A stretch of DNA of 64,000 bases from Candidatus Zhuqueibacterota bacterium (GTDB taxonomy: Bacteria; Zhuqueibacterota; Zhuqueibacteria; Oceanimicrobiales; Oceanimicrobiaceae). Shown here piece by piece: positions 1 to 3,126 of the stretch. The stretch covers positions 1 through 64,000 of the forward strand of contig JAJDAD010000006.1 in the NCBI GenBank assembly GCA_029262055.1. Direction: 5' to 3'. How positions within the stretch are numbered: the first letter of the stretch is position 1; each line of letters opens with the position of its first letter. The translations under genes and the position numbers were made by a program. Under the pieces are notes generated by a model, which did no database searches, was not told the origin of the DNA, and worked only from the letters and a program-made list of their open reading frames with translations.

Positions 1-78
1 CCGTCGCAGGATATCTGCCAGCTCAAGGCCGCCCTTCCTGCGCATCGATTTCACATCATGTAACCTGCAAACACCCAT
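1..78 (-). CDS. Partial ORF at left edge, possibly the N-terminus of an IS91-type transposase
   Basis: An open frame reads leftwards from an ATG at 78-76 off the window edge (26 codons visible), with a purine-rich GAAGAG just before the start. The end of the visible peptide, RKGGLELADILRR, resembles the 'LELADIxRR' opening seen in IS91-family transposases, which are often found beside tyrosine recombinases. That resemblance is from memory and rests on about ten residues, so the assignment is tentative. It is divergent from the recombinase at 280. If it is not a transposase it may be a chance open frame. Confidence 0.3.
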   Translation of the reverse strand, partial: MGVCRLHDVKSMRRKGGLELADILRR

Positions 79-212
79 CTCTTCAAATCCCCTAAGTTAC
101 ATCTTTATATAGACTTGCAACTCGTTGCTTCGTTCAACTAGGATTTCTATAGTTTTCTTCATAAGAACGTAAGATTGAAGAATTATTATTGACTCGCAAC
201 AAAAAGTTGACT
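58..212. other. Intergenic region with clustered GTT/AAC inverted repeats (possible recombination site)
   Basis: The stretch between the left-edge ORF and the recombinase holds several short inverted repeats. ATGTAAC (58-64) pairs with GTTACAT (96-102), GCAAC (117-121) with GTTGC (124-128), and a further GCAAC...GTTGAC pair lies around 196-211. One 7-mer, GTTCAAC near 132, fits the RYYYAAC half-site used by integron integrases. Two TTGACT boxes (189, 207) are 18 bp apart and could be -35 elements or repeats. No full attC or attI could be assembled, so this is only a candidate attachment or regulatory region. Confidence 0.25.
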
Positions 213-279
213 AAATACTAAATAAATCTAACTGTATAAGATCCAAATTACGCGTGATAAACAATTCTGTATAATTCTC

Positions 280-1623
280 ATGCTTCACATTTCCACACAA
301 TTAAAAGACAGTTACTCCCGGTTGTTGACGCAAAGACAGATCCCGCCATATAGTCACAACTACTACCTAAAATGGCTGCGCTTCTATCTTGATTTTTGCA
401 GGAAGTACAAGCATGCTTCCGCAAACCCGGCTGCACTCCCTCTTTTCATAAAGAAGCTGCAAACAAAAAACCAAACACATCGGCAGCAAAATCAGGCTGC
501 TCACGCAATAAAGTTGTATTATGTCATAAATAGTGATGCAGTAAATGCTCAAAAAATAAGCTCCCAAACATCCGCAGATAGCCCCGCGATCCAAAAAGCT
601 GCCGGCGCTCCCAAGCCGAAGCAGGCTTCCTGGCAACGTATTTACACAGATTTGGATGCTGCTATAAAGGTCCGCAACTATTCACCGAAAACTTACAAAA
701 GCTATGCTTCCTGGGTACGAAAATTTCAGGCTTTTACCTCAGCAAAGTCTCCCGAGTTGTTGACCGGTGATGATGTTGCGTCTTTTTTGACAAACCTGGC
801 AACGAAGCATCAGGTTTCTGCTTCCACACAGAATCAAGCGCTTAGTGCTCTGCTCTTTATGTTCCGTCATATTTTGAAACGGGACTTTGGACGTTTGGAG
901 GGTATCGTTTGGGCAAAAAGGAGCCGTTACATTCCGGTTGTCCTGTCTCGTGAAGAAATTGATTCCATTCTTCAACATCTCGTTTATCCGTATGATTTGG
1001 TCATTAAACTCTTATATGGCTGCGGATTGCGGCTTTTCGAGTGTTTGCAACTGCGTGTCAACAATCTCAATTTCGATACCATGATCCTGACCGTGCATGA
1101 TGGTAAAGGACTGAAAGATAGAACTGCACCAATTCCTTCCGTTATTCTGGATGACCTGAAAGAGCAAATTCGCCGGGTGCAGAATCTACATCAAAAAGAT
1201 TTGGCTGCCAGGTACCATGGCACATTCATGTTTGGTGCAATTGAGAAAAAATATGTGAATGCTGCTAAGGAATTCATTTGGCAATGGCTCTTCCCGGCCA
1301 AAGAATTGAGCGTAATTCCTGAAACCGATGAACGAAGACGCTATCATCTGCATCCGACACATGTTCAAAAAGCCTTGCGGAAAGCAGTCTACAAATCAAA
1401 AATTACCAAGCGCGCTACAGCCCACACCTTTCGCCATAGTTTTGCCAGCCACCTTTTGCAAGCTAATTACGATATACGAACCATTCAGCAACTTCTTGGA
1501 CATGGTGATATCAGAACCACCATGATTTACACACATACCGTACCAAGTGAAACCGTTAAAGAAGCAAGGAGTCCCTTGGACTTTACTAAAGAATCTGACA
1601 GAGCCGTGAGCCAGCAATTGTAG
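280..1623 (+). CDS. Integron-type tyrosine recombinase (IntI-like) with extended N-terminus
   Basis: This is a tyrosine site-specific recombinase that breaks and rejoins DNA through a 3'-phosphotyrosine. All six catalytic residues are visible: R251 (GCGLRLFE), K276, H382 and R385 (HTFRH), H408 (LLGHGD) and nucleophile Y417 (MIYTH). Between K276 and H382 it has the extra segment typical of integron integrases and absent from XerC/XerD; FIWQWLFP followed by RRYHLH matches the IntI-specific patch. At 447 aa it is about 110 residues longer than IntI1. The extra N-terminus (about 20-85) looks like a second SAM-like core-binding domain ahead of the normal one (about 125-205). The gene is intact. 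No cassette or attC array was recognised beside it. It could act on a mobile element rather than a true integron. Confidence 0.85.
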   Translation: MLHISTQLKDSYSRLLTQRQIPPYSHNYYLKWLRFYLDFCRKYKHASANPAALPLFIKKLQTKNQTHRQQNQAAHAIKLYYVINSDAVNAQKISSQTSADSPAIQKAAGAPKPKQASWQRIYTDLDAAIKVRNYSPKTYKSYASWVRKFQAFTSAKSPELLTGDDVASFLTNLATKHQVSASTQNQALSALLFMFRHILKRDFGRLEGIVWAKRSRYIPVVLSREEIDSILQHLVYPYDLVIKLLYGCGLRLFECLQLRVNNLNFDTMILTVHDGKGLKDRTAPIPSVILDDLKEQIRRVQNLHQKDLAARYHGTFMFGAIEKKYVNAAKEFIWQWLFPAKELSVIPETDERRRYHLHPTHVQKALRKAVYKSKITKRATAHTFRHSFASHLLQANYDIRTIQQLLGHGDIRTTMIYTHTVPSETVKEARSPLDFTKESDRAVSQQL

Positions 1624-1651: not shown

Positions 1652-2184
1652 TCACTCCCCAAATGTATTTTCATTGGCAAAATAATTATCGTTGCAACCC
1701 CACTCTTCCGGATAATAACCCAATCTGAGATAACGACGAAAGCTCGACCATCTCCAATCGTAGGACTTGCTGACATAACCATGTTTTACCGGATTGAAAT
1801 GGATATAATCAAAGTGTCTGGCAAAGTCAATGTCATCCCTAATCATGTGTTCCCAATAACGTCGTTGCCAAACCGCGACTTCTTTTTTCTCTTGCCGCGA
1901 TTGATTTCGTGTGCCTTCGCGACCACCGGCTTTTAGATAACGCCGGCTGAACAGCCCTTTGATTAGACGCCATCGTTTGGGGTAATCACAATCGTCTGGT
2001 GGCATTCGCCACATACAATGCATGTGGTCAGGAAGCAAACAAATAGCCTCTACTTTGAACGGGTATTTTTCTTGCGCCTCTTTCCAGGCCTCCCGTAAGA
2101 TGCGTCGCGCAAGGTCTGAGGTTGAGAATTTGTGCCGGTCAAATATAATCCACCGGGTTGTTTTGCACGAACATAATTCGACAT
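1652..2184 (-). pseudogene. REP-associated tyrosine transposase (RAYT, IS200-like Y1 family), frameshifted
   Basis: RAYTs are single-stranded DNA transposases linked to REP palindromes. The frame ending at 1652 carries the family signatures LLPDHMHCMW (the HUH metal-binding histidines), WRLIKGLFSRRY and YIHFNPVKHGYV with WRWSSFRRY near the end. No good start exists in that frame. A family-typical start, MSNYVRAKQPGGLY, begins at the ATG at 2184-2182 in another frame, and the homology resumes after about position 2140 as DRHKFSTSDLARRILREAW. The expected 'FFTVVT' strand between them is missing, suggesting a deletion of roughly 20 bp that also shifted the frame. The gene is therefore probably inactive, although most of the catalytic domain is still open. 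It ends 28 bp from the convergent recombinase. Confidence 0.75.
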
Positions 2185-2664
2185 GCAGCGCCTTTGTTCA
2201 TTTCACGGGATCGTTGGGTTCAAGAAGACGAACCGAACCACCATAGATTACAAAATCGTGTAAGTTAGCGGGACGGGTATGAACATCTTCAGTCACTTGC
2301 GTTCACACCGGGGGTACATCCCTATCACAAAAATTGCCAAACCGGCAATGCTTCATCAAAAGTTGCAGGAGAAACACCGAGTAAATATTAAATCTTTGCG
2401 AATTTAGTAAAAAGACTGTGATGTGTCAAGCAAAAGGTCCTGGCCGGGGAAGGAAAAGCTGCTTAGGCCGAACCGTCTGTTCGTCTTTTCGGTTATTTGT
2501 GCCTTTTCCGAAAGAATTGGGCCGTTGCAGGGGTGCAGGTAGGTTCAACATCTGCAAAATATTTTTGCACCGCATGAGTGGATGTGTTTGACGCGTTGAA
2601 TCGATCCATTCAAGGCGTCAATTGTACTAAAAATACGCTTGTTTTTGAGGTAAAAGAGGTGATT
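2185..2664. other. Non-coding stretch between RAYT relic and HU gene
   Basis: About 480 bp without a convincing gene. The only open frames are short, in unrelated frames and lack homology. It contains one small hairpin (2333-2349, listed separately). No tRNA, attC or insertion-sequence end was recognised. It may be decayed mobile DNA adjoining the RAYT relic. Confidence 0.4.
2328..2349 (-). terminator. Weak rho-independent terminator candidate, minus strand
   Basis: ATTGCC (2333-2338) and GGCAAT (2344-2349) form a 6-bp stem with a 5-nt loop. Read on the minus strand it is followed by TTTTTGTG. It lies beyond the HU terminator and would block read-through into the RAYT relic. The stem is short, so confidence is modest. 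Confidence 0.35.
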
Positions 2665-2742: not shown

Positions 2743-3126
2743 CTAGTTGGCCTTTTTGTAGTCGATGTTGTTGAGCGCTTTTTGGATCTCCTTGCCGGGG
2801 CGGAAGCGCAGCTTGTTGCCTTTGATATTGCTTGAAGTCACCTCTTCTGATTTTTCCGAACCTTCGCTCTGTAAGGTCAGGCGAAAATTGCCAAAGTCTC
2901 CCAGCCCCACCACCTTGCCCTCAGAGATATTCTGCGGGATGACCTGCACCAAAGCTTCCAATACCGCCACGGTGTCGATGGTGCTGACCGTGGAAATATT
3001 GGAAATTTGGTTGGATAGGTCGCGAATCCCGACTTTCCCTGTGCTCCTGGCGTTGGTATAGAACTTCCTGGGAGCATCAGGGTCGCCAGGGTTCTTCTTT
3101 CCGACAACGGTATATTCTACCGACAT
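2743..3126 (-). CDS. HU-family DNA-binding protein (HU-related/HIG type)
   Basis: A 127-aa protein of the IHF/HU superfamily, which bend and compact DNA as dimers. The N-terminal 'MSVEYTVVGKKNPGDP' replaces the usual first HU helix and marks the longer HU-related subfamily common in Bacteroidota and relatives. The HU core follows: SNQISNISTVSTIDTVAVLEALVQVI, then VVGLGDFGNFRLTL (the GDFG turn), and a C-terminal strand ending in FRPGKEIQKALNNID. The start is fixed by GGAGGTG seven bases upstream of ATG. The gene is monocistronic by appearance, with its own strong terminator. The DNA targets cannot be told from sequence. Confidence 0.88.
   Translation of the reverse strand: MSVEYTVVGKKNPGDPDAPRKFYTNARSTGKVGIRDLSNQISNISTVSTIDTVAVLEALVQVIPQNISEGKVVGLGDFGNFRLTLQSEGSEKSEEVTSSNIKGNKLRFRPGKEIQKALNNIDYKKAN

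Follow-up and report, generated by a model that had tools for sequence, protein, structure and literature searches.

IntI1 of class 1 integrons and VchIntIA (IntI4; structure 2a3v) share with the integrase described here the catalytic hexad, the IntI-specific segment, and one SAM-like core-binding domain, as well as the layout in which intI is divergent from the attC array. How integron integrases (IntIs) tell attI, which is double-stranded, from attC, which is a folded single strand, is a long-standing question. Arm sites stabilize the recombination complex of lambda Int, and DR1/DR2 do so for IntI1. Longer integrases have also been reported; in its passages on "clade 15," an earlier survey described integrases mainly from Deltaproteobacteria that are ~120 aa longer through a shared fusion and that were held to be functional (Nemergut et al., 2008; PMC2426708).

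In this work, we analyzed positions 1-64000 of contig C60 (JAJDAD010000006.1) of a Candidatus Zhuqueibacterota bacterium; this stretch of 64,000 nucleotides is hereafter called the window. The draft genome comprises 114 contigs and is 97% complete. The gene near the start of the window is an intact integron integrase of the long type (Table 1). Overall, the locus likely holds a chromosomal integron integrase that is intact, probably active, and a member of a long clade with two SAM-like domains; the steps through which it would work are inferred below.

Table 1. Features at the integrase end of the window, in window coordinates.
Feature	Position	Strand	Evidence
Beginning of the first cassette, truncated where the contig stops and common to two other attI loci	1-135	-	Identity to contigs C2 and C24
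Putative attI core, TTATGAAGAAAACTATAGAAATCCTAGTT on the minus strand, G/TT crossover at 136-138; would encode the leader MKKTIEILV	136-164	-	Six near-identical copies in the genome; flank switching
Promoter-like hexamers of intI, TTGACT (189-194) and TAAATA (212-217), putative	189-217	+	Position fits the TTGACA-N17-TATAAT-like sequence of relatives
Conserved attI/promoter box CTAACTGTATAAGA	228-241	+	Conservation in the long clade; kept in five attI copies without intI
intI, long-type integron integrase, 447 aa, intact	280-1623	+	Open reading frame; TIGR02249; catalytic residues; clade position
Extra N-terminal SAM-like core-binding domain, residues 1-95	280-564	+	PF13495; AlphaFold; Foldseek; dN/dS
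Canonical IntI core-binding SAM-like domain, residues ~115-200	622-879	+	PF13495 at residues 123-203; helices 115-198
Tyrosine-recombinase catalytic domain, residues 222-420 (R251, K276, H382, R385, H408, Y417)	943-1539	+	PF00589; alignment with VchIntIA (2a3v)
IntI-specific segment FIWQWLFP...RRYHLH	1273-1353	+	Aligns with EFRWHYLFP...RRHHMN of VchIntIA
Decayed Y1/RAYT-like transposase gene, neighbor of intI and not part of the integron	1652-2240	-	128-aa fragment of an intact 183-aa homolog in C46

Identity and Distribution of the Integrase

In profile searches, the intI product scored 369.9 bits against the integron integrase model TIGR02249 (cut-off 265), whereas the XerC (148 vs. 335 bits) and XerD (134 vs. 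330 bits) models remained far below their cut-offs. By sequence, the best solved structure is that of VchIntIA (2a3v; E = 8e-71), to which this integrase has a TM-score of 0.86, and the identity to IntI1 is 41% over residues 120-434. The first-pass annotation of this DNA had claimed a complete R/K/H/R/H/Y set. All six residues were found at the positions it gave, aligned with the same residues of IntI1 and VchIntIA, and across 114 aligned proteins each has a conservation of 98% or more; the IntI-specific segment that it named likewise has its counterpart in VchIntIA (Table 1). In a tree made by a quick method and with long outgroup branches, the integrase grouped with IntIs rather than with Xer proteins, as the 73 IntI rows were split at 100% from three Xer-like rows of the same genome.

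A search for related loci found 80, at least 68 of which are intact and full length with the same architecture. Most of these long-type relatives are from Desulfobacterota, and the rest are from Planctomycetes, Nitrospirae, KSB1, Gammaproteobacteria, and other groups. When the shared region was used for a tree, the long forms fell into one large and deep IntI clade, the members of which have the ~110 extra residues in common apart from fragments, and the standard IntIs of the same phylum are placed on the other side. The rows labeled "std" inside the long clade are fragments or broken frames. The earlier statement that known IntIs have 320-340 aa had overlooked the ~120 aa longer group described in the passages cited above (PMC2426708).

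A Second SAM-Like Domain

Standard IntI1 and VchIntIA are without the first ~110 residues of this integrase, which had been annotated from the sequence as a second SAM-like domain. The evidence agrees with that claim. Searched by themselves, residues 1-120 reach 29.8 bits against PF13495 (Phage_int_SAM_4; gathering threshold 27; E = 8e-7), and the N-termini of 36 of 42 relatives match this family as well. A profile built from the extra domain also recognizes, in 38 training sequences, the normal core-binding domain of the proteins concerned, as well as the one core-binding domain of standard IntIs, and a profile-profile comparison of the extra with the normal core-binding domain gave a modest match (E = 1.6e-4, probability 51%). 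For residues 1-95, the fold is SAM-like according to the AlphaFold model and Foldseek. The model has four helices (6-18, 23-42, 52-62, and 67-94; pLDDT ~96) in the order found in the normal core-binding domain, and the Foldseek matches include an archaeal Xer (probability 1.00, TM 0.67), VchIntIA (0.96, 2.7 Å), and XerA, with the weak E-values expected for a small and helical domain. The dN/dS of the extra domain is ~0.12-0.29 in most close pairs, the exception being one pair with few changes, and the linker diverges freely between close relatives. Therefore, the N-terminal residues form a genuine extra domain that shares ancestry with the core-binding domain and is kept under purifying selection. 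Its conserved basic residues are K31, K42, K59, and K63. One member of the long clade (L107) has no recognizable extra domain.

The Array Side of intI

The first-pass annotation had also noted that no attC site or cassette array was in view. This is correct for the letters of the window, in which the first 6 kb gave zero relaxed attC matches and the only stronger candidates, one at 31 kb and one at 47 kb, are both at chance level. It is an edge effect: the contig is cut 279 bp 5' of intI, the side on which relatives carry their arrays.

Among the relatives, attC-like sites with a score of at least 13 numbered 38 in 277 kb upstream (2 in shuffles) vs. four in 579 kb downstream. Such upstream sites are present in 23 of the 49 loci with >1 kb of sequence there, compared with 0-2 in each of ten shuffled replicates. 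The long-form IntI on a Thiodictyon plasmid has five canonical attC sites of 96-97 nt, all on its 5' side. Furthermore, contigs end within 700 bp of intI on the 5' side in 31 of 80 relatives vs. four of 80 on the 3' side (p = 2e-7), as expected if repeats lie there. The counts were obtained with a home-made scored scanner and shuffled controls rather than with HattCI or IntegronFinder; as a positive control, it recovered two class 1 attC sites. A strict scan (exact RYYYAAC/GTTRRRY with paired arms) was too insensitive and was replaced by the scored one.

For the genome itself, the attC scan covered ~1.8 of 5.7 Mb, namely the first 20 kb of most contigs. At a low threshold the matches were at chance level overall, and only contigs C22 and C53 stood out. 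The two-attC cluster of C53 (L185, 157-4884) has no intI and contains a TIR-domain gene that matches the Thoeris ThsB TIR, a serine/threonine kinase gene, and a DUF1801 gene.

On the other side of the integrase gene, a HU-HIG family DNA-binding protein gene (PF18291; window 2746-3126, minus strand) adjoins the integron. Y1/RAYT-like transposase genes (window 1652-2240; L089, 5128-5679; L153, 3170-3781) adjoin intI, the C-terminal fragment of intI on C46, and the cassette genes of C103 at their far end.

Six Copies of a Putative attI Core

An attI-like core is located 115 bp upstream of intI, at window 136-164, and contains ATGAAGAAAACTATAGAAATCCTAGTT on the minus strand. Near-identical cores were found six times in the genome (C60, C2, C24, C22, C56, and C103), and only the C60 copy adjoins intI. 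Full-length intI was found only on C60; beyond it, the one IntI-like sequence worth noting is a fragment of the C-terminus on C46, and another intI could be missed in a draft assembly of this completeness. The attI core of this genome is absent from all seven family relatives. Since the sister genome G024 has a single attI, the presence of multiple attI sites is not a family-wide trait.

The flanks of these copies are shared in different combinations. Contigs C2 and C24 end in sequence that is 100% identical to window 25-164 and 28-164. On the cassette side, C60, C2, and C24 are 100% identical, with 27-38% on their intI side; on the intI side, C2/C22 and C24/C103 are 97% alike, with 25-37% on their cassette side. 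Such independent switching of flanks at the core is the pattern that site-specific exchange would leave, and simple duplication would hardly produce it. That the same 140 bp stand beside three attI copies with unrelated other flanks points to recent recombination. An IS91-like origin of the flank shared by C60, C2, and C24 was considered and rejected, as this flank has no similarity to the IS91 transposase in L273.

Contig C22 has attI together with three canonical attC sites and cassette genes but no intI, and C103 has one attC-like site adjoining attI. The core may encode a translated leader that runs into the first cassette, because an AAAGGAG-like sequence is located upstream of the leader start in C103 and C24. 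ORF-11 of attI1 is a precedent for a leader encoded in attI. Rfam gave nothing significant on the attI leaders and nothing at the gathering threshold for the related loci.

Several other repeats and cassette genes were observed near such sites. The first gene past attI on C56 (L154, 379-882) matches SieB, a superinfection-exclusion protein. Some attI copies are flanked on their intI side by a repeat of 130-290 bp with a constant outer end, which is found without attI as well (C22, C2, C56, C110, C73, C64, and C76). In Desulfocicer vacuolatum (G082), the 96 bp directly past the attI crossover of a long-type intI are 100% identical to a segment of another contig (C62:3923-4018 vs. L045, 1-96), and the identity ends at the AAC core, which suggests a moved cassette. 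In addition, an element of ~120 bp with three hairpins abuts attI and attC core sites of long-type integrons in several phyla and ends with GGGAAC at the crossover. It is present in Methylomicrobium sp. wino1 (L078, 9750-9875, plus four copies, at -2.8 to -9.5 kb from intI), where copies in one chromosome are 98-99% identical, and similar sequences occur in L019, L018, L027, L068, and L077. This is possibly a non-autonomous element targeting integron recombination sites.

A Conserved Box at the intI Promoter and the attI-Like Copies

Upstream of intI in the long clade, a TTGACA-N17-TATAAT-like sequence is followed directly by a box with the consensus CTAACYGNATAWCA. Of 73 loci, 53 have the box at 36-75 nt upstream of the start codon when up to three mismatches are allowed; a slightly longer motif is found with up to one mismatch in 32 of 75 loci and in none of the reversed controls, and the members of the clade are related, such that these counts do not represent independent events. 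About a quarter of the long clade has no clear box, and it is absent upstream of the standard IntIs of the same phylum and of IntI1. At ~55% protein identity, intergenic DNA would not be kept without constraint.

The five attI copies without intI have kept the box at 81-82 nt from the crossover, and promoter hexamers are not obvious there. The spacing from AAC to the box is 90 in G024 vs. 81-92 in this genome. From this distribution, the box appears to be part of attI and would most simply be bound by the integrase, in which the extra SAM-like domain is perhaps the natural candidate for gripping it. It might also be an operator for an unrelated regulator.

Proposed Mechanism and Alternatives

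We propose that the integrase would recombine the folded attC sites of cassettes with attI at the G/TT crossover and that cassettes would be inserted on the 5' side of intI. It would also serve the five other attI copies in trans, since no other full-length intI was found. In the least certain step, the extra SAM-like domain would be a second DNA-binding module on the box between the crossover and intI. This contact would stabilize the attI complex, comparable to the arm sites of lambda Int and to DR1/DR2 of IntI1, and would repress intI as well, because the box overlaps the intI transcription start. These steps can be extended, tentatively, to a distributed integron, a model that is possible and as a whole rather improbable. 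At least six attI platforms dispersed over one chromosome, each carrying a leader and cassettes of its own, would be acted on in trans by one double-SAM integrase. Its extra domain would be an arm-type DNA-binding domain that recognizes the box common to these platforms and to most intI promoters of the long clade, coupling the choice of attI with self-repression. If true, six attI platforms sharing a single intI would revise the view that each array has one integrase, and attI would be able to move and to function apart from an intI of its own. The discrimination between attI and attC would also become directly testable in a large natural clade whose integrases combine an added DNA-binding domain with a conserved partner box.

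A serious alternative, with somewhat less than an even chance in our judgment, is that the extra domain is a protein-protein module, acting in oligomerization or as a directionality factor, and that a host regulator binds the box. In recombinase synapses, SAM-like domains are engaged in protein contacts as well, the profile-profile link between the two domains is only moderate, and the box overlaps the start of the intI promoter as an operator would. However, it is kept in attI copies that have neither intI nor obvious promoter hexamers, the four conserved lysines suit contact with DNA, and LexA operators differ among the phyla that share the box. For the cores themselves, it is unlikely that they are the ends of a mobile repeat that adjoins intI by chance. 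The ~130-290 bp on the intI side are indeed a dispersed repeat that is partly found without a core, but the boundary lies precisely at the integron core AAC/GTT, attI occupies the same position in relatives, canonical attC sites directly follow the core in C22, and both flanks vary independently rather than just one.

The first-pass annotation had raised the possibility of a lone integron remnant or a recombinase reassigned to another element. Its domain reading, an IntI with a duplicated core-binding region, is retained, and neither outcome that it named as a refutation, placement in the XerC/D clade or an N-terminus lacking a SAM-like fold, was observed. The functional part is not supported, given the intact gene, the attI-like site upstream, and the relatives of the same architecture beside attC arrays. 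A degenerate remnant, i.e., an intI stranded without an array and with recombination lost, is quite improbable. The lack of attC in the first 6 kb and the truncated second intI copy on C46 would fit it, and pseudo-integrons are common (PMC2426708); against it, the gene has its full length, none of the catalytic residues is missing, the absent side lies off the contig, and the shared 140 bp recur beside attI copies with unrelated other flanks. It could still be that the five other attI loci stem from old integrons in which intI was lost and recombination has ceased. Reassignment to an IS91-like, phage, or Xer function has hardly any likelihood: a pair of IS91 transposase and short integrase is located inside one related array, but the bit scores, the tree position, and the layout of attI, attC, and intI in relatives all argue for an integron integrase.

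Comparison with Known Systems

Clusters of attC without an integrase (CALINs) are matched by C53, with two attC sites, and by C22, with three, both without intI. Unlike plain CALINs, the loci on C22, C56, C103, C2, and C24 have an attI core with its leader. CALINs are by definition without a neighboring integrase, and we know of none that keeps attI.

From size and taxonomy, with the clade-15 sequences lying outside our tree, we infer that the long clade corresponds to clade 15 as characterized in the passages concerned (Nemergut et al., 2008; PMC2426708). The two are alike in the ~120 extra aa and in the weight of Desulfobacterota among their members, and the long clade found here reaches several more phyla than those passages give. 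With the 2008 remark, the long N-terminus in itself is for the most part not new, although the passages on clade 15 do not describe the extra residues as a second SAM-like domain and mention neither the box nor multiple attI sites. Our literature search found no paper that pairs "integron integrase" with "SAM-like domain" and, on multiple attI sites, nothing beyond one class 1 paper. The intI-promoter box of the long clade and the six attI cores in one genome look new.

The IntI of Candidatus Thiodictyon syntrophicum plasmid pTs485 (WP_269467352) is similar in length (454 aa), has a weak second SAM match at its N-terminus, and has its attC array 5' of the gene. It differs in having 34.8% identity, a position on the standard side of the tree, and no box. 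The double architecture may have arisen twice, or it may predate the long clade.
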